A stretch of 20,127 nucleotides of DNA from a virus, in IMG/VR virus record IMGVR_UViG_3300032236_000752, positions 1 to 20,127 of that record; one strand, 5' to 3'. The translations under genes and the position numbers were made by a program. The stretch's first letter is position 1. Each line of letters begins with the position of its first letter. The notes beneath the pieces were generated by a model. The model did not search any database and was not told the DNA's origin. It saw only the letters and a list, made by a program, of their open reading frames with translations. Of this stretch, positions 1-8,026 are shown in pieces.

Positions 1-1535
1 ACAACAGTGATAGCACATCTACCAACCAAAATACTTTATCTGAAATATCCAATTTACAAAAAGAAGTTAATCAGATTTCTAGTGAACTTAACAACAACAG
101 TGATAGCACATCTACCAACCAAAATACTTTATCTGAAATATCCAATTTACAAAAAGAAGTTAATCAGATTTCTAGTGAACTTAACAACAACAGTGAAACT
201 TCTAGTACCAATTCAAATGTTACGGTATTAGGTAAAGAGAAACGTACAAAACAAACTGCATCTAAAGTATCAACCACTTCTACTCCAAAAACCGAAATGG
301 GTTGGTTGGAAAAGATTTATAATTTACTTGATAGTAAATTCAAATCAGAACAAAAGCAAAAAGATTTAGAAACCAAACAAAAAGAAATACAAGCGAGTGA
401 ATCTGAAGCTGCTAGAGAAGAATCAAAATTACAAGAAGTAAACAAAGAACAGAAGCAAGTTAAAGAAAAATCTAAAGAAGAAACTGGCGAAGACAAACCT
501 AGTTCTATAATGAGCAAGTTGAAAGACTCATTTATGAATTTCAAAAAAGGCGGTGGTCTATCAAAAGGTGCTGCGGCGGGAGAAGGTGCAGCTGCTGCCG
601 GTTCTGGTTTAGCTGAAGGTGCCGCTCTTGCTGGTGGTGCCGTAGGTGGTGCCGCTCTTGCCGGTGGTGCAGCTGAAGGTGCCGGATTAGCCGGTGGTGC
701 CGCGGCAGCGGGTGAAGGTTTGTTAGCAGGTGGTGCATTAGTTGCCGCGGCACCATGGTTGTTAGGTGCGGCTGCAGTTGGTGGTACTGGATATCTTGGA
801 TATAAAGCTTACAAAGGTTTATCAGGTGATGCTGCAAAATCAGTCAAAGGTTCAAACCCAAGTGGTGAAGTAGACCAAACATACTTCCAAAAATCACCAG
901 GCGAATCCGACAGTGATTACAGTAAGAGAATGACTGAATATGCTACAAAGAATAATGCTCAAATAGCGGCCGGTACTAAAGAAATGCCTAAAGGGTATGA
1001 CCCTAAGACTGGTACACAAACTGCAACTCCAAGTGCGGCTAAACCAGCAGCAACTACTCCTGCAGTCACATCATCTACATCTACATCTACAACAAACAAT
1101 ACAAGTAATAAATTGACAGCTACAAAAATGTCAAGAGAAGATTGGGAAAAAACTATTGAAAATAATACGGATTTAACTAAAGCGTCTACAACTAATAATA
1201 CATCACAAACAAATACAGCAACACCTGTAACACAGACTGCTCAGAATGTTGCAAATGATACGATTAATAATACCACATCGACAACTAATAATGCTAATTT
1301 GGCACCAGCTTCACCAAATCAAATAGCTGCACGAGCAACACATGCTACACATGAACATAAAAATTTAGTAAATGAATCAGCAACATCGTCTAATAATCCT
1401 GTTATAATAAATGCACCTAAGACAACTAATAACAATGTATCTGGTGGTTCAAAAGGTGGATTAGAATCGACACCTATCAGAGACCAAGAACCGATGATAT
1501 CACAAGTACAATATCTATCTTGTAGACCTGTATAA
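1..1535 (+). CDS. repeat-rich, probably virion-associated protein, 5' partial
   Basis: The reading frame is open from the first bases of the window, so the ATG at 297 is internal and the gene begins upstream. The visible product starts with two identical 31-residue repeats (93 bp each) with a coiled-coil pattern of Leu/Ile/Val spacing. A charged Lys/Glu/Gln helix follows (about 300-520), then a long Ala/Gly-rich hydrophobic stretch (about 560-800), a Ser/Thr/Asn-rich low-complexity region and a short C-terminal tail. I do not recognise a named family. The composition resembles phage tail or baseplate proteins, and the gene is alone on the plus strand opposite replication genes, which fits a late structural gene. 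A membrane-active role for the Ala/Gly segment is inference only. Translation ends at TAA 1533-1535, just before a terminator. Confidence 0.75.
   Translation, partial: NSDSTSTNQNTLSEISNLQKEVNQISSELNNNSDSTSTNQNTLSEISNLQKEVNQISSELNNNSETSSTNSNVTVLGKEKRTKQTASKVSTTSTPKTEMGWLEKIYNLLDSKFKSEQKQKDLETKQKEIQASESEAAREESKLQEVNKEQKQVKEKSKEETGEDKPSSIMSKLKDSFMNFKKGGGLSKGAAAGEGAAAAGSGLAEGAALAGGAVGGAALAGGAAEGAGLAGGAAAAGEGLLAGGALVAAAPWLLGAAAVGGTGYLGYKAYKGLSGDAAKSVKGSNPSGEVDQTYFQKSPGESDSDYSKRMTEYATKNNAQIAAGTKEMPKGYDPKTGTQTATPSAAKPAATTPAVTSSTSTSTTNNTSNKLTATKMSREDWEKTIENNTDLTKASTTNNTSQTNTATPVTQTAQNVANDTINNTTSTTNNANLAPASPNQIAARATHATHEHKNLVNESATSSNNPVIINAPKTTNNNVSGGSKGGLESTPIRDQEPMISQVQYLSCRPV
6..205 (+). repeat. 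93-bp in-frame tandem repeat
   Basis: Positions 6-98 and 99-191 are identical over 93 bp. The start of a third copy (192-196) then diverges. The unit encodes 31 residues, so copy number can change without breaking the frame. The array may contain more copies upstream of the window, since the first copy already begins at the window edge. Confidence 0.95.
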
Positions 1536-1765: not shown

Positions 1766-2671
1766 CTAATCTTCGTTAGCTAAAGCGGCAAAGTGATCCA
1801 TAATCAAATCATCATCATCGTCTACCCAAGGTTTATCAATCGAAGGCACTTCAGCTTTTTCAACTGGAGTTACTTTCACTTCCTCGACTGTAGCAGTGCG
1901 AGGTGCCGCAGGTGTGTTAGGCAAACTACCCAATACACGAGCCAAACGGACTTTCAACTCATCATATGACTTGAAGTGTTTCTTATCCAAGAACTCTTTA
2001 AGAGAATACTCAGATTTCCACAATGCTTCAAGTTTAGCATCATCACCATTTAATGCTGGAGATGCACCTTCAAACTCAGATTTGTCATAGTTTTGGTAAC
2101 CCTCAACTTTACGAATCTTCAATTTGAAGTTAGCGCCTTCCCACAAATCAAATGGGTTGATTGGTTTTTCATCTTCAAACGCTGGATTCATTGCTTCTGT
2201 AATCTTGTCAAAGATTTTCTTGCCAAACTTAAACAACTTAACTTGACCGTTGTTTTCTGGATGTTTAGAATCCTCAACAATCAATACGTTTGAGATATAT
2301 GTCAAACGGCGTTTTTGTTTACGTGCAATTTCTTTGTTGGCTTCGATACCAGAATTCCACAATTCAGAGTTATATTCTGAAACGGGGTCTTTCTCATTAA
2401 GAGTGGTCAATGAGTTTTCGATGTACCAACCGCCTGGACCTTGGAAGCCATGTGTATACACTTTAGCCCACGGTAAACCATCATCACCATCAACTGCTGG
2501 TGCCGGTAAGAAACGAATAACAGCATAACCGTTACCTGCTTTGTCTACCTCTGGTTTCCAAAAGTTTTCATCTGAACTGTCACCTGATTGTGGTGAATTG
2601 ACTTGCTCTAGTGCCTTTGTGAGTTTTTCAAGATTTGAAGAACTGCGTTTTAAATTAGCGAAATCTACCAT
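1766..2671 (-). CDS. 32: single-stranded DNA-binding protein gp32
   Basis: This 301-residue protein is a T4 gp32 homologue and has the T4 length. It coats single-stranded DNA during phage replication, recombination and repair. The N-terminal Lys-Arg-Ser-Ser cluster (residues 8-12) corresponds to the cooperativity (LAST) motif. The core shows AGNGYAVIRFLP (about 46-57), HGF..GGWYIE (about 74-85), a FGKKIFDKI segment and WEGANFKLKIRKVEGYQNYD. The C-terminus is acidic (five consecutive Asp), as expected for binding partner proteins. The T4 zinc ligands Cys77, Cys87 and Cys90 have no counterparts; the protein contains no cysteine. The gene follows gp59 and gp33 in T4 order. The start has AAGGA upstream. 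Confidence 0.96.
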   Translation of the reverse strand: MVDFANLKRSSSNLEKLTKALEQVNSPQSGDSSDENFWKPEVDKAGNGYAVIRFLPAPAVDGDDGLPWAKVYTHGFQGPGGWYIENSLTTLNEKDPVSEYNSELWNSGIEANKEIARKQKRRLTYISNVLIVEDSKHPENNGQVKLFKFGKKIFDKITEAMNPAFEDEKPINPFDLWEGANFKLKIRKVEGYQNYDKSEFEGASPALNGDDAKLEALWKSEYSLKEFLDKKHFKSYDELKVRLARVLGSLPNTPAAPRTATVEEVKVTPVEKAEVPSIDKPWVDDDDDLIMDHFAALANED

Positions 2672-2723: not shown

Positions 2724-3332
2724 TTATTTATGCCGCTTTATTTGATTGCTCAATATTTCTTTGAACTTTACCTTGTCAAACACAACAAAGGGTTCATACT
2801 TCTTACACCTGAATGTAAACGCCGGATACACGATATCATCCTGTATTTGTTTATCCCACACATCAAAAATCTTAGTAAAATGATTAATGATGACCACGGT
2901 CTCTGGCGCTACATTCCCATAATAAACTTCTTTTAACAATAAAGGTTCTTGTCCATCCTTTACCGTAAAAATATCATTCGGCTTTGAAACTTTATCGAAT
3001 AGATACATTATATCTTGTTCGAACTGATATGTCAAGGCCTGATTTCTCTTTTGCCAACATTTATATACATCATCACCTTCTTGTGTATTCAAATCACCAA
3101 TCCAGCACTTAGGTTTACTGAATAGATTGGCAACAAAGAAATCTTTAACATCAGTCAGGTTATACTTCCGTGAGATAGCATAGAAAACATACTTATCCCT
3201 ACGATTTAAGAAAGCATCCTTACTGATATTACATTTCCCATGGTACTTAAAGTAATCATAGGACTTAGAAGTGAAGTGTAAATGTAGGGTATGAAACAAA
3301 GCAAACGTTGCATAACCTCCATTCTCACTCAT
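2724..3332 (-). CDS. 59: helicase loader gp59
   Basis: This 202-residue protein matches T4 gp59, which loads the gp41 replicative helicase onto gp32-coated DNA at forks and recombination intermediates. The clearest similarity is the N-terminal half. A YDYFKY segment (about 25-30) aligns with the T4 segment YDVIKY, followed by RRDKY (44-48), SRKYNL and WIGDL (77-81). The usual length is about 217, so it is full size. The start overlaps the gp33 stop by four bases (ATGA), and gp32 follows downstream, the same neighbourhood as in T4. A near-perfect sigma70 promoter lies inside the coding region (3007-3035). Confidence 0.9.
   Translation of the reverse strand: MSENGGYATFALFHTLHLHFTSKSYDYFKYHGKCNISKDAFLNRRDKYVFYAISRKYNLTDVKDFFVANLFSKPKCWIGDLNTQEGDDVYKCWQKRNQALTYQFEQDIMYLFDKVSKPNDIFTVKDGQEPLLLKEVYYGNVAPETVVIINHFTKIFDVWDKQIQDDIVYPAFTFRCKKYEPFVVFDKVKFKEILSNQIKRHK
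2725..2732 (-). promoter_or_regulatory. possible T4-type late promoter for gp32
   Basis: The minus strand reads CATAAATA, matching seven of eight bases of the T4 late consensus TATAAATA. It lies at the gp59 stop, about 50 bases ahead of the gp32 ATG, leaving room for a leader with a ribosome binding site. Late transcription is expected because gp33 is encoded nearby. A short A/T motif like this is weak evidence. Confidence 0.3.
3007..3035 (-). promoter_or_regulatory. sigma70-type promoter inside gp59, reading toward gp32
   Basis: The minus strand has TTGACA (3030-3035), a 17-base spacer and TATAAT (3007-3012), a perfect consensus. It lies within the gp59 reading frame about 330 bases ahead of the gp32 start, and would give gp32 its own early transcript. 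The spacer contains the 8-base palindrome GTTCGAAC. Confidence 0.7.
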
Positions 3333-3553
3333 AACGGCAAACTAGCCCCTTCTTTTTTCAACATATTCATAACCATTGCTTCATCACGGATAATCGATTT
3401 TAATCTAGGTGATACCAGTGATGATGCTAACTCAATCTCAAAACCTGTTTCTTTACAATGTTCCACAATTGCATCTATGTGACTACACTCTAACTTTTTG
3501 GCTAATGTCTCTATCATTAGCGAGAAGTTTTTTATCTCTTCTTTCGTTGGCAT
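3329..3553 (-). CDS. 33: late-transcription co-activator gp33
   Basis: The 74-residue product matches T4 gp33 in its core. It has a helix with LECSHIDAIVEHCKE, then a segment around SPRLKSIIRDEAM that parallels the T4 segment PSGIIEKIQSEAI. gp33 bridges RNA polymerase and the gp45 sliding clamp to activate late promoters. It is shorter than T4 gp33 (112 residues) because the N-terminus is reduced. The last residues (ASLPL) are only loosely like the clamp-binding tail of T4 (LDFLL). The ATG at 3553 has AGGA six bases upstream and lies inside the preceding hydrolase gene, overlapping it by 71 bases. The position directly before gp59 strongly supports the call. Confidence 0.8.
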   Translation of the reverse strand: MPTKEEIKNFSLMIETLAKKLECSHIDAIVEHCKETGFEIELASSLVSPRLKSIIRDEAMVMNMLKKEGASLPL

Positions 3554-4103
3554 ACTTAGTCCTATAAAATTTGTGATTACCTATCACTTTAACCTGTTTG
3601 TATTTTTCTTTCCAATTTGTTTCTAAATGTTTCTCATGGAAAAATAATACATTACGGCTAAATTTATCATAAACTTTCTTTTCTGTCAATGCTATTTTAG
3701 CAACATAAACAGAATCACCCCATGCTGGAGAATCAATTAATACTTTCTTGGTACCTTCACATACCCATGAGAACTGACAGATGGTTTTCTGTAATTCTAC
3801 GCTATGTGTTTTTTGTTTCACTACACCACATGCTGACTTTGGAAATCCAGCAGCCATCATACGGTTCAATACTACTTGAGCTACGGCCTGTTTACCTTCT
3901 AAAGGTTCAGCACCTGCCTCAAAATATACATTCTTAGCTAAACAGATTAATTCTTTTTGATTAACTTTTGGTTTTACAGTAACTTGTTTCTCATTGTTTA
4001 CAACTTGTTCAGTTTGTACATTATGGGATACAATATTTGCTTTAAGCATCAGTCCTAAGAGAAAAGCAAAGACCACCCACACGATTAATGTGTCGTTCTT
4101 CAT
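3483..4103 (-). CDS. SleB-type cell wall hydrolase with N-terminal membrane anchor
   Basis: This 206-residue protein carries the Hydrolase_2/SleB fold typical of peptidoglycan hydrolases. The motif LAKNVYFEAGAEPLEGKQAV (55-74) contains the probable catalytic Glu62. It is followed by VVLNRM, CQFSWVC and a late NVLFFHE segment. Residues 5-21 form one hydrophobic helix followed by a short linker, suggesting a signal-anchor, as in endolysins exported by the host Sec system. The basic C-terminal tail (from about residue 175) overlaps the start of gp33. A role in lysis or in opening the wall is inferred from the family. A terminator hairpin lies 20 bases ahead of its ribosome binding site (AAAGGAT). 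Confidence 0.85.
   Translation of the reverse strand: MKNDTLIVWVVFAFLLGLMLKANIVSHNVQTEQVVNNEKQVTVKPKVNQKELICLAKNVYFEAGAEPLEGKQAVAQVVLNRMMAAGFPKSACGVVKQKTHSVELQKTICQFSWVCEGTKKVLIDSPAWGDSVYVAKIALTEKKVYDKFSRNVLFFHEKHLETNWKEKYKQVKVIGNHKFYRTKYANERRDKKLLANDRDISQKVRV
3661..3689 (-). promoter_or_regulatory. weak candidate promoter inside the SleB-type gene
   Basis: The minus strand has TTGACA (3684-3689), a 17-base spacer and TAAATT (3661-3666). The -35 box is perfect but the -10 box matches only four of six bases. It would serve gp33 and gp59. Confidence 0.3.
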
Positions 4104-5057: not shown

Positions 5058-5094
5058 AAAAATGGTGGGTTATTCTGTTGCTAAGAAACCCACC
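5058..5094 (-). terminator. intrinsic terminator of the tmRNA unit
   Basis: On the minus strand GGTGGGTT (5087-5094) pairs perfectly with AACCCACC (5064-5071) around a 15-base loop. TTTTT (5058-5062) follows after one base. The upper edge overlaps a smaller hairpin (ACCG/CGGT, 5092-5105), so the two cannot form together. Confidence 0.85.
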
Positions 5095-5111
5095 GAAACT
5101 CCGGTCTGCGT

Positions 5112-5144
5112 TTAAGCAGCCATTCTATATTCGCTATCGTTTGC
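5112..5144 (-). other. tmRNA proteolysis tag reading frame
   Basis: Starting at the GCA resume codon (5142-5144), ten codons encode ANDSEYRMAA, followed by TAA (5112-5114). With the alanine delivered by charged tmRNA, the tag would be AANDSEYRMAA. The opening AND and closing AA are typical of proteobacterial tags. The usual third-last Leu or Val is replaced by Met. Confidence 0.93.
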
Positions 5145-5227
5145 GTTTATATTTTGTTTTACTTTTTACGACTCTCTGTGTCGAGCGCCATTATCCTATC
5201 TCACGCTGTCGAAACCTGGTCATCCCC

Positions 5228-5280
5228 ATCATCTGAATACTGTTTGCGGCATTTCAGCCCATGCCAACTCAATACTCAGG
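5228..5280 (-). other. intervening segment of the permuted tmRNA
   Basis: This 53-base segment lies between the mature CCA end and the GGGG start of the coding piece. It folds into one extended hairpin. CTGAGTATT (5271-5279) pairs with AGTATTCAG (5233-5241) with two G-U pairs, and an inner GGCAT/ATGCC stem is formed by 5261-5265 and 5248-5252. It prolongs the acceptor stem and is expected to be removed by tRNA-processing nucleases. Confidence 0.85.
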
Positions 5281-5344
5281 TGGTGGAGATGGGCGGAATC
5301 GAACCGCCGTCCAACATGCCTTACTTTATGGTTATACGCTGTTT

Positions 5345-5662
5345 TTATTGCACTTGCACAAATACTTCTTTATAACAACTACAATTTGCATCGTAGATTG
5401 TGTCTTTTCTGTATAGTGGTTGTTGAGGTTGAACCACCACAGGTGGTTGTTGATATACTACTTGAGGTTGTGGTTGAACCACAACTGTACGAGGTTGAGA
5501 TAACTCATAACCAATTAAACCACCAATTGCTAATGGAGCAACCCATCCATAACCACCACCGCCGCCACGATAATAGTGACCACGATATCCATAACCATCA
5601 TAACCATGTGCCGAAGCACTCAATGATGTTAATAAACCTAATGCTAAGATTACTTTTTTCAT
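5345..5662 (-). CDS. exported Gly-rich small protein
   Basis: This 105-residue protein has a signal peptide (residues 1-18, cleavage after ASA) and a Gly/Tyr/His-rich segment with five consecutive Gly (33-37). A short hydrophobic glycine-zipper-like stretch (WVAPLAIGGLIGYEL) follows, then a Gln/Pro/Val-rich linker and a C-terminal Cys-Ser-Cys (94-96). Similar small periplasmic or surface proteins of unknown function are common in Gram-negative bacteria, so it is probably host-derived. It follows a consensus promoter (5689-5717) and its stop codon directly abuts the tmRNA acceptor piece. The two are therefore likely transcribed together. The start has AGAGGA upstream. Confidence 0.8.
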   Translation of the reverse strand: MKKVILALGLLTSLSASAHGYDGYGYRGHYYRGGGGGYGWVAPLAIGGLIGYELSQPRTVVVQPQPQVVYQQPPVVVQPQQPLYRKDTIYDANCSCYKEVFVQVQ

Positions 5663-5688: not shown

Positions 5689-5717
5689 ATTATATATCAA
5701 TAACCACATATTGTCAA
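5689..5717 (-). promoter_or_regulatory. consensus sigma70 promoter for the Gly-rich protein and tmRNA
   Basis: The minus strand has TTGACA (5712-5717), a 17-base spacer and TATAAT (5689-5694). Just inside lies an inverted repeat (5681-5691 with 5699-5709, eleven-base arms, one mismatch, seven-base centre) that covers part of the -10 box and could be an operator. Confidence 0.88.
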
Positions 5718-5723
5718 GCATTA

Positions 5724-6470
5724 TTACCAAGTTTTTACTGTTTCTAATGATACGTTTGGACCAGCTAACTTAGGATTAAAGTTAATGCCTGTTGCCTTTT
5801 CTACATCAGCAATATTTGTTTTGTATTTTTCCAAGTCAGCAACTGGTAGTGCTGTGTTAGGGAAAATGTATGCTGAGGCCTTGTTACCTTTTACATCAAT
5901 GATAATCTTATACAAACGAGTTGGCACACCTACTTTGCCTGGACCAATTGTTTTATAACCAGCATCATAGATTGGACCTGAAGCAACGTATACTTCGTTA
6001 CCTGCGTTGACATAATCACGCACTTTAGTTTCTAATTGTTTCCAAATACCTCTGTTGTTATTGGCAACTTGTGGCACCATGTTAGAAAGCAAAAATGACT
6101 CTGACATGATGGTGTCATTGATAGTATTGTCACCTGCGGGTGCCATATGACCACGGTCATAAGTTTTACCTTCAGTAGCATAGTCTGCTAGCGTTGCTTC
6201 AAATTGTTTAGCAATCTGAGCATCTGGTCTAAAATCATCTTTACGTTTTGCTGGGCCTGAAATTGCAGCCTTAGTTACATGTTCCAACACAAAGAAAGAT
6301 GTTTTTGTTGTGTCATTATACTGAATAGCATAATTGGTACGACAGTAGTATTCATTTGTTACCTTAGATACTGGCGCACCAAATGGAACAAACTGAGAGC
6401 ATTTGTCATCAATTGGATTTGCCGAAGCAAATAACGGGAATACTAATAATGCTAATAATAACTTTTTCAT
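5724..6470 (-). CDS. secreted DNA/RNA non-specific endonuclease (NUC1 family)
   Basis: The 248-residue protein belongs to the beta-beta-alpha-metal nuclease family of Serratia nuclease. The catalytic motif DRGHMAP is at 105-111 with His108 as the probable general base. The metal-binding region is NMVPQVANNNRGIWKQLE (130-147). A signal peptide (1-17, cleavage after ASA) and an early Cys pair (24 and 43) indicate export and a disulphide. The enzyme would act in the periplasm or outside the cell, unlike the T4 host-DNA-degrading enzymes. It could degrade incoming DNA of competitors or released DNA; that role is inference. Its start overlaps the preceding nuclease gene by four bases (ATGA). Confidence 0.92.
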   Translation of the reverse strand: MKKLLLALLVFPLFASANPIDDKCSQFVPFGAPVSKVTNEYYCRTNYAIQYNDTTKTSFFVLEHVTKAAISGPAKRKDDFRPDAQIAKQFEATLADYATEGKTYDRGHMAPAGDNTINDTIMSESFLLSNMVPQVANNNRGIWKQLETKVRDYVNAGNEVYVASGPIYDAGYKTIGPGKVGVPTRLYKIIIDVKGNKASAYIFPNTALPVADLEKYKTNIADVEKATGINFNPKLAGPNVSLETVKTW

Positions 6471-7126
6471 TTATGGGTCCTTTTGTAATCTTGTACTAAA
6501 TTAACCAATGGTTCAATCCATGGTTCGGTTGGTTGAATGAACACCAATGGTTTTTCATTCTCTACGGCCATAATAGTAACCAATTGGTGTATCGGTTGTC
6601 CTATTAATTCCTCATATGCGAGAGCATAGAAACACTCTTGCATATAATAATCTTCAATCATATCAGATGTTTTAATTTTGCGTGATGTCTTAAAGTCAAT
6701 AACAGACAATACACCATCATATTCACCAATACAATCAACTCGACCAGCAACACCAAGTGTAGTGCTATAAAGACCACACTCTTGGTAGTGTATATTATTT
6801 ATACGGTTTAGTAGTGGTTTGAGTGTATTGAACATCTCCAAAGCGTCCGGGAACGCACCACGAGTGTAATGTTGTTCATTGTTCAGATACTTCTCGCAAA
6901 GCGTGTGGACGTTTGTCCCTCGGTTTGAGGACTGTTTACTGATACGATTAGCTTCTACTTCACCAACCTTATTACGCCACTCTTGTATGATGTCTTTTTT
7001 GAAATAGGAAAGCACAGTAGTGATAGAAGGCACCTTATCACCGTTAGGTAACAGGTACTTTCTACCATATTGAGTCGTTTCAGCAGTTAATTCTTCTAAA
7101 GTTTTTGGTGGGCAATAATTAAACAT
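6467..7126 (-). CDS. PD-(D/E)XK exonuclease
   Basis: The 219-residue product has the nuclease core of the RecB/MGME1-like group found in many marine T4-type phages. It shows RGTNVHTLCEKYL (69-81), Glu116, GRVD (128-131), DFKTS (144-148, catalytic Asp and Lys) and QECFYALAYE (163-172). It probably processes DNA ends in recombination or repair. I prefer the ATG at 7126, since it overlaps the methyltransferase stop by eight bases and has a purine-rich AAAGAG upstream. The ATG at 7168 would add 14 residues, overlap more and lack a ribosome binding site. The next gene follows with a four-base overlap. Confidence 0.88.
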   Translation of the reverse strand: MFNYCPPKTLEELTAETTQYGRKYLLPNGDKVPSITTVLSYFKKDIIQEWRNKVGEVEANRISKQSSNRGTNVHTLCEKYLNNEQHYTRGAFPDALEMFNTLKPLLNRINNIHYQECGLYSTTLGVAGRVDCIGEYDGVLSVIDFKTSRKIKTSDMIEDYYMQECFYALAYEELIGQPIHQLVTIMAVENEKPLVFIQPTEPWIEPLVNLVQDYKRTHK

Positions 7127-7748
7127 CAGCTCTTTCAAAGAAGATATTAGCTTCTTTTTGTTGGTCATCAGGCACTACATTGACAATCTTAAACCCATGT
7201 TTAAATAACCATTCTTCAATTTGTTGACAAGTGTTACCTGTGTCTTTATATAATTCAAAGTTCAAAGCACCTTCACAGTTGCCGGCAACCACATCTTTAA
7301 TTCTGCTACCTAAACTCTGTAGGACTTTAAGGTCGTTACCTTGAGCATCAATCCATAAGTAATCGATTACCTCAATGTTATTATTTTCCATAAAAGTGTC
7401 AAGGCGAATAGTCATTACCTTAACTTTATCTGTATAGAATAAACCTGTGTGATGTGGCCAGGCTGGACTCGCTTCACCTAGGTTCTCAGGTTGTACACCA
7501 TCTGAGAAGTCATATAGTGAAGAGCAACCCCAATTGTTACATCCTGCTACATTGAACCACTTGAAACCATTCTCAACATCGGCAGCCATTGGCACCAAAT
7601 TGAAACGGTCATTACCTTTGAATTTTCTTTGTAACTCTACAACCAACTCAGGTGTAGGTTCAAAAGCATAAACAATATTTTCTTCTTTATTTAAAAATAA
7701 CTCAGTATCGGTGCCAAGGTTAGCACCGACTTCAACGATAGTTTTCAT
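7119..7748 (-). CDS. FkbM-family methyltransferase
   Basis: This 209-residue protein is an S-adenosylmethionine-dependent methyltransferase. Motif I is VEVGANLG (5-12), the following acidic strand is FEPTP (29-33), and LDTF (116-119) with WIDAQGND (132-139) forms the FkbM signature. Members O-methylate sugars and small molecules. In phages they often sit with glycosyltransferases, as here (GT-D gene at 8777-9559). The ATG at 7748 is chosen over the GTG two codons earlier because it has AGGGAG six bases upstream and overlaps the preceding stop as TAATG. The substrate cannot be deduced. Confidence 0.88.
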   Translation of the reverse strand: MKTIVEVGANLGTDTELFLNKEENIVYAFEPTPELVVELQRKFKGNDRFNLVPMAADVENGFKWFNVAGCNNWGCSSLYDFSDGVQPENLGEASPAWPHHTGLFYTDKVKVMTIRLDTFMENNNIEVIDYLWIDAQGNDLKVLQSLGSRIKDVVAGNCEGALNFELYKDTGNTCQQIEEWLFKHGFKIVNVVPDDQQKEANIFFERADV

Positions 7749-8026
7749 TACCACTCCCTTGGTGTCTTTGTTTTATGACCACTCATTGTATTACCAGGAA
7801 TAGTTTCTTTCATACGTTGAATGACATACTTCTCAAATGTTGAGTCTGGTTTACCAATGCCAGGTACAGACATACGTGAACCATCTGACATTACTGGTAA
7901 ATTCTCTGATGAATGATATTGTTCAAGTTGAGGATTACTCTCTTTGAATTCATCCAATTTAGTGTATGACATGGTGTATTGTTTAATCTCACCTGTCACC
8001 TTATTTCTAAAATCATAGTTAGGCAT
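7748..8026 (-). CDS. conserved phage hypothetical, FmdB-like opening
   Basis: The 92-residue product starts MPNYDFRNKVTGE, resembling the opening of small FmdB-type zinc-ribbon proteins (MPxYxFxC). The cysteines that would bind zinc are absent, so any relationship is structural or degenerate. The rest is polar, with a conserved-looking SDGSRMSVPGIGKPDS segment. The ATG at 8026 is preferred because GGAG lies eight bases upstream and it overlaps the previous gene by only eight bases. The frame is open to 8065. Function unknown. Confidence 0.65.
   Translation of the reverse strand: MPNYDFRNKVTGEIKQYTMSYTKLDEFKESNPQLEQYHSSENLPVMSDGSRMSVPGIGKPDSTFEKYVIQRMKETIPGNTMSGHKTKTPREW

Follow-up and report, generated by a model that had tools for sequence, protein, structure and literature searches.

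A betaproteobacterial-type permuted two-piece tmRNA gene predicted among the replication genes of a T4-type phage

The window, by which we mean the whole 20,127-base virus record analysed here (IMG/VR IMGVR_UViG_3300032236_000752), encodes homologues of gp32, gp59, and gp33, whose joint presence assigns it to the T4-type phages. An earlier note on this DNA had placed a tmRNA beside T4-type genes, and the three homologues identify that neighborhood. The features of the locus, listed in the direction of the minus strand, are the following.

6467..7168, minus strand: PD-(D/E)XK exonuclease, the upstream landmark of the tmRNA locus (phrog_298, E 8.3e-74; PF12705; synteny)
5689..5717, minus strand: candidate sigma-70-type promoter, TTGACA-17-TATAAT (12 of 12 consensus matches, called by consensus alone)
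5345..5662, minus strand: 105-aa ORF ending at the acceptor piece (homologues lie just upstream of the tmRNA in the viral contigs L051 and L095)
5340-5057, minus strand: permuted tmRNA gene overall (Rfam)
3483..4103, minus strand: cell-wall hydrolase of the SleB type, between the tmRNA and gp33 (PF07486, E 1.1e-21; synteny)
3329..3553, minus strand: gp33, late-transcription coactivator (PF16805, E 4.1e-14; phrog_254)
2724..3332, minus strand: gp59, helicase loader (phrog_269, E 1.8e-53)
1766..2671, minus strand: gp32, single-strand DNA-binding protein (phrog_224, E 7.5e-114)

The promoter at 5717-5689 precedes both the 105-aa ORF, which has no Pfam or PHROG match, and the tmRNA; the two probably share one transcript. 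In relatives, L049 and L068 among them, a promoter of this kind immediately precedes the tmRNA. Further neighbors in the window are an outer-membrane-type protein and a non-specific endonuclease. Among the isolate matches listed for gp32, the best is Pelagibacter phage HTVC008M, with 56.5% identity. No near-identical phage isolate was found, and a search with only the tmRNA returned short matches, mostly to Stenotrophomonas and Pseudomonas phages. At the contig edge, the first ORF contains IAHLPTKILYLKYPIYKKKLIRFLVNLTTTV twice as a tandem repeat (7-231, plus strand), which could stem from assembly or from the contig end.

Infernal searches with Rfam models place a tmRNA_permuted match (RF04321) at 5340-5112 on the minus strand, covering the full model length with 113.1 bits (cut-off 47) and an E-value of 8.6e-22. 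The beta_tmRNA model (RF01850) matches minus-strand positions 5387-5057 with 98.8 bits (cut-off 84), and all of its modelled elements are present in the RNA. The alpha-tmRNA model reaches 55.6 bits and the cyano-tmRNA model 45.9 bits, under its cut-off of 70. Identity as a one-piece tmRNA is ruled out by the score of the corresponding model (RF00023), 27.2 bits against a cut-off of 47. ARAGORN calls a permuted tmRNA with the tag ANDSEYRMAA, and the predicted fold of the precursor is more stable than that of shuffled sequences (z-score -4.0). By sequence and model score, this is thus the gene for a betaproteobacterial-type permuted two-piece tmRNA, an RNA that releases stalled ribosomes in bacteria. 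The earlier note had read a permuted two-piece tmRNA here and named the comparison of permuted and one-piece Infernal models and an ARAGORN run as checks; the sequence and both programs agree with that reading. The beta_tmRNA score of the window lies below those of the bacterial members found here (296, 251.5, and 169 bits), from which the window copy also differs in being phage-borne.

Read 5' to 3' on the minus strand, the gene consists of an acceptor piece, a 53-nt intervening segment, and a coding piece, with the following parts.

5281..5344, minus strand: acceptor piece (Rfam RF04321 and RF01850, ARAGORN, covariation); its 5' start, near 5344-5340, is approximate
5340-5337 and 5331-5328, minus strand: outer helix strands AGCG and CCAU in the acceptor piece (sequence)
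5318-5313, minus strand: P2 5' strand CAUGUU, in the acceptor piece
5228..5280, minus strand: intervening segment, 53 nt, with an internal hairpin (sequence, predicted fold)
5064..5227, minus strand: coding piece (sequence, Rfam, covariation)
5227-5221, minus strand: acceptor 5' strand GGGGAUG, forming all seven pairs including G3.U70, in the coding piece
5207-5202, minus strand: P2 3' strand AGCGUG, in the coding piece
5191-5184, minus strand: outer helix strand AUGGCGCU, in the coding piece
5112..5144, minus strand: tag reading frame ANDSEYRMAA, codons 5144-5115 (ARAGORN)
5064..5094, minus strand: 3' hairpin GGUGGGUU-(UCUUAGCAACAGAAU)-AACCCACC, eight pairs (conserved in relatives)

The acceptor piece contains the T arm GGCGG-UUCGAUU-CCGCC and the acceptor 3' strand CAUCUCC, followed by A73 and an encoded CCA that ends at 5281. 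The alanine identity elements G3.U70, A73, and CCA are therefore all present (5227-5221 with 5291-5281). The ends of the intervening segment, CUGAGUAUU and AGUAUUCAG, are predicted to pair with each other and to lengthen the acceptor stem in the precursor; removal of the segment during maturation is expected. In the coding piece, the D loop is GGUUUCGACA, and the tag frame runs from the resume codon GCA (5144-5142) to the stop TAA (5114-5112). The sequence ATTTTT (5063-5058) directly follows the 3' hairpin, which may double as a terminator. Several structural claims of the earlier note can be read directly in these parts: a CCA-ended acceptor half ahead of the tag-coding half on the minus strand, seven acceptor pairs with G3-U70, a T arm, and two inter-piece helices, which correspond to P2 and the outer AGCG/CGCU helix. 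The piece ends it had put near 5281 and 5227 are exact in the sequence, as predicted processing points. Its interval of 5095-5344 captured the locus and fell slightly short at the 3' end, where the conserved hairpin extends to 5064.

Viral contigs that carry relatives of gp59 share the order exonuclease, tmRNA, hydrolase, gp33, gp59, gp32. With a strict search pattern, a permuted tmRNA is found at this locus in 31 of the 47 contigs whose sequence reaches 3 kb or more upstream of gp59; L096 and L126 also carry one there, which the strict pattern missed. The IMG/VR contigs L002-L048 and L049-L126 contain permuted tmRNAs with the architecture of the window, whereas their intervening segments are unrelated to the window's. 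The closest mature RNAs are those of L049 (91% identity) and L051 (86%), which share the locus and whose gp59 proteins are 76% and 69% identical to that of the window. In agreement with gp59, the window groups with L049 and L051 in the tmRNA tree (support 100/99). Alpha-like sequences stand apart in this tree, in which many inner branches are weak, and bacterial beta sequences share one large half of the tree with the window, though not as its near neighbors.

Two-piece tmRNAs in T4-type phages are already known. The earlier note had been aware of no characterised example, and this part of it does not hold: in Melnitz (MZ577097), a T4-like myophage that infects OM43, a two-piece tmRNA is annotated immediately ahead of gp33 (PMC9004378). 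The same paper counts 53 two-piece tmRNAs in the genomes of phage isolates, of which 50 come from marine or aquatic samples (PMC9004378), and the current tmRNA database lists 79 tmRNA sequences from bacteriophages, all forms included (PMC11915505). Like the window, Melnitz is T4-type and aquatic, with a permuted tmRNA between a PD-(D/E)XK nuclease and gp33-gp59-gp32. The two differ in tmRNA type, which is alpha in Melnitz (106.7 alpha versus 25.0 beta bits) and beta in the window (98.8 versus 55.6), in the intervening segment (142 nt with an ORF in Melnitz, 53 nt without one in the window), and in the place of the cell-wall hydrolase, which lies upstream of the nuclease in Melnitz and between the tmRNA and gp33 in the window. 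The tmRNAs of the mycobacteriophage Bxz1 group and of Bacillus phage G are phage-encoded, as is the window's (PMC4131195). They have the one-piece form and belong to phages of other types.

What is new here is a beta-type two-piece tmRNA at a gene position common to a large group of T4-type phages, which extends the phage-borne two-piece form from the alpha type of Melnitz to the beta type. The contig L053, whose gp59 is 55% identical to that of the window and whose locus order is the same, has a tmRNA scoring 80.7 alpha versus 47.6 beta bits. Since L053 and Melnitz are alpha-type and the window is beta-type at one locus, the locus is shared while the tmRNA lineage differs, and phages may swap tmRNAs at this site on a change of host. 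Two further observations concern individual contigs. L061 has a second, partial coding piece (7700-7760) just upstream of its complete permuted tmRNA, and the permuted tmRNAs of L021 and L034 encode a 28-residue tag, ANANTKDVVKVSMGRGFRFARGTEAVAA, according to ARAGORN.

Conservation of structure was assessed in 82 permuted tmRNAs, 65 of them distinct, taken from Melnitz and from viral contigs. Every one of the 65 distinct sequences has G.U at pair 3-70; because the search imposed U70 and seven acceptor pairs, with A-U at 3-70 acceptable in contigs found through gp59, the evidence lies only in the choice of G rather than A at position 3 among the gp59-found contigs and in compensatory changes. 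Pairs 4-69, 5-68, and 6-67 vary on both sides among the same sequences. An alignment-based test of 59 phage sequences, in which the acceptor pairs were partly misaligned, gave 99.2% pairing for P2 (best shuffle 83.9%) and 100% for the T stem (best shuffle 86.4%), four of whose five pairs were a search criterion. Gaps spoiled this test for the outer and middle helices. The outer helix, AGCG/CGCU, was retested without a fixed register, and strands scored 13.5 with their own partners against a maximum of 12.2 in 300 partner shuffles; these helix controls ignore the relatedness of the sequences. In relatives, the loop of the 3' hairpin stays constant (GUAACAGAA or slight variants of it) and its stem takes about 30 different forms, of which nearly all pair fully. 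The strong covariation of P2, the T stem, and the 3' hairpin points to selection as a structured tmRNA. T-loop position 55 also covaries with the D loop among the 82 sequences, with U55 accompanied by GG in 57, G55 by AG in 24, and a single exception. Finally, the pattern L/M/I/V-A-A closes 36 of the 37 distinct phage tags.

Comparison of the same genes indicates that intervening segments are exchanged independently of tmRNA bodies. In 27 pairs the segments are at least 85% identical on bodies less than 75% identical, and in 66 pairs bodies at least 85% identical carry segments less than 60% identical. Some segments are 95-100% identical on bodies of 63-72% identity, as in L029 and L039, where identical segments interrupt bodies that are 63% identical; the reverse is seen in L091 and L055, whose bodies are 99% identical and whose segments are unrelated. 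The window itself shares 91% of its mature parts and 26% of its intervening segment with L049. The simplest reading of these comparisons is that the segment is swapped between phages by recombination through the conserved flanking arms. Because the arms are conserved, assembly chimaeras possibly contribute; an explanation by chimaeras alone is countered by segments that match at 95-98% and not exactly, and by the long spacer of Melnitz, an isolate. In the literature searched, which took in few subscription papers, we found no report of such spacer exchange.

The four longest non-composite segments (142-165 nt; Melnitz (L130), L055, L084, and L113) each contain a small unannotated ORF of 40-54 codons, equalled by chance in 4 to 20 of 500 shuffles each and matching no Pfam family above cut-off. 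It is possible, if doubtful, that the permuted gene acts as a cargo slot, in which a segment destined for removal could be swapped freely and could house small genes without burdening the tmRNA. We also considered the segment as an independent mobile element and rejected this for the family tested, which was never found outside tmRNA genes: its core, searched without a tmRNA anchor, occurred in ten contigs, all within the 18 where it adjoins the coding piece. No ribozymes or other Rfam families were detected in the intervening segments of 31 contigs. Segment exchange serves as a natural experiment on the tolerance of precursor processing, and may help to explain why the permuted form is well suited to phages.

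Two contigs show a rearranged locus. The segment of L049 (8294-8481) is composite: between its two spacer hairpins lies a fused remnant of a tRNA-like domain, whose acceptor-like hairpin ends in CCA (GGAGATGATAGGTATCTCTACCA). In L126 (3480-3790), which is 97% identical to L049 beside the rearranged segment, a decayed acceptor start, in which a short truncated ORF is located, precedes a complete tmRNA. Together they show the locus undergoing rearrangement. The truncated ORF resembles GIY-YIG weakly (E 0.0021, which does not pass the cut-off), with another weak GIY-YIG hit nearby, and homing endonuclease activity at the tmRNA is possible.

We consider it likely, at a probability of about 85%, that the beta-type permuted tmRNA gene of the window is functional, resides in the phage, and adds ribosome rescue during infection. 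This reading draws on a tRNA-like domain with every element for charging with alanine, a degron-like tag end, helices that join the pieces, and the conservation of the gene and its place, with the gene order kept in those 31 contigs and, with gp33 adjoining, in Melnitz. Host RNA polymerase would transcribe the tmRNA early from the sigma-70 promoter, host RNase P would cut at 5227, and host 3'-end enzymes would remove the extra sequence as far as the CCA at 5281. Still base-paired, the two pieces would be charged with alanine by host AlaRS and bind host SmpB; a search of 14 virus records, including five longer than 140 kb, gave no SmpB (PF01668). Ribosomes stalled on broken messages during infection would then be rescued with addition of ANDSEYRMAA, which host proteases could probably recognise, and rescue would be sustained under heavy mRNA turnover and host-gene shut-off. 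The hydrophobic-A-A end of nearly all distinct tags indicates that tagging for breakdown is probably kept; with MAA in place of LAA, degradation of the window's tag may be weaker. A whole T4-type group keeps a tmRNA at one place near its late-transcription coactivator.

The same gene could instead be a passenger, acquired from a host or another phage and still processed, of little benefit and kept by a recombination hot spot. By the strict pattern about one third of comparable contigs lack a tmRNA at the locus, which indicates that the gene is not essential to the group, and the turnover seen in L126 and L049 would suit a passenger as well. We nevertheless regard this as quite unlikely, since the strong compensatory change in P2, the T stem, and the 3' hairpin, together with G3.U70 and degron-like tags retained across very diverged phages, speaks for functional selection. 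Rather unlikely, too, is a role beyond added rescue, in which the tmRNA mainly alters the fate of tagged proteins or competes with host tmRNA and SmpB. Tag variation, from ANDSEYRMAA in the window to long or odd tags in L012, L021, and L010, would be compatible with such a role, as would the inhibition of tmRNA by a tag-less tRNA-like domain of the kind found in mycobacteriophage DS6A (PMC4131195, PMC11915505). The tag frame here is intact, unlike that of DS6A, and the near-uniform hydrophobic-A-A end argues for ordinary tagging.

Because mobile elements commonly integrate at tmRNA genes, the window might instead be a piece of a bacterial genome or the border of a prophage inserted at such a gene. 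Such an origin is scarcely tenable: the tmRNA is complete and lies inside T4-type replication genes, the ORFs tested include no integrase, and dozens of viral contigs show the same arrangement, a synteny that already contradicts it.

A host from a lineage able to process split tmRNA, as the earlier note had supposed, is plausible. It does not strictly follow, because both one-piece and permuted tmRNAs occur in two Herbaspirillum genomes and in a third Burkholderiales genome (G188). A first exact tmRNA pattern gave zero matches in bacterial genomes, and a DNA search of 399 Burkholderiales genomes returned mostly short T-arm matches, as expected from tRNA genes. Herbaspirillum, which a looser pattern had raised as a host lead through two genomes, was rejected, as its permuted tmRNA is not close to that of the window. 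The one-piece tmRNAs of these genomes, Herbaspirillum sp. LeCh32-8 (L132/L134) and Herbaspirillum sp. RV1423 (L133/L135), score 217-219 bits. Their chromosomal permuted tmRNAs encode tags that end in GT (ANDSQFLAYGT and ANESQYLAFGT), for which recognition by ClpXP is not expected, and the tag in G188 is ANDENFAMAA.
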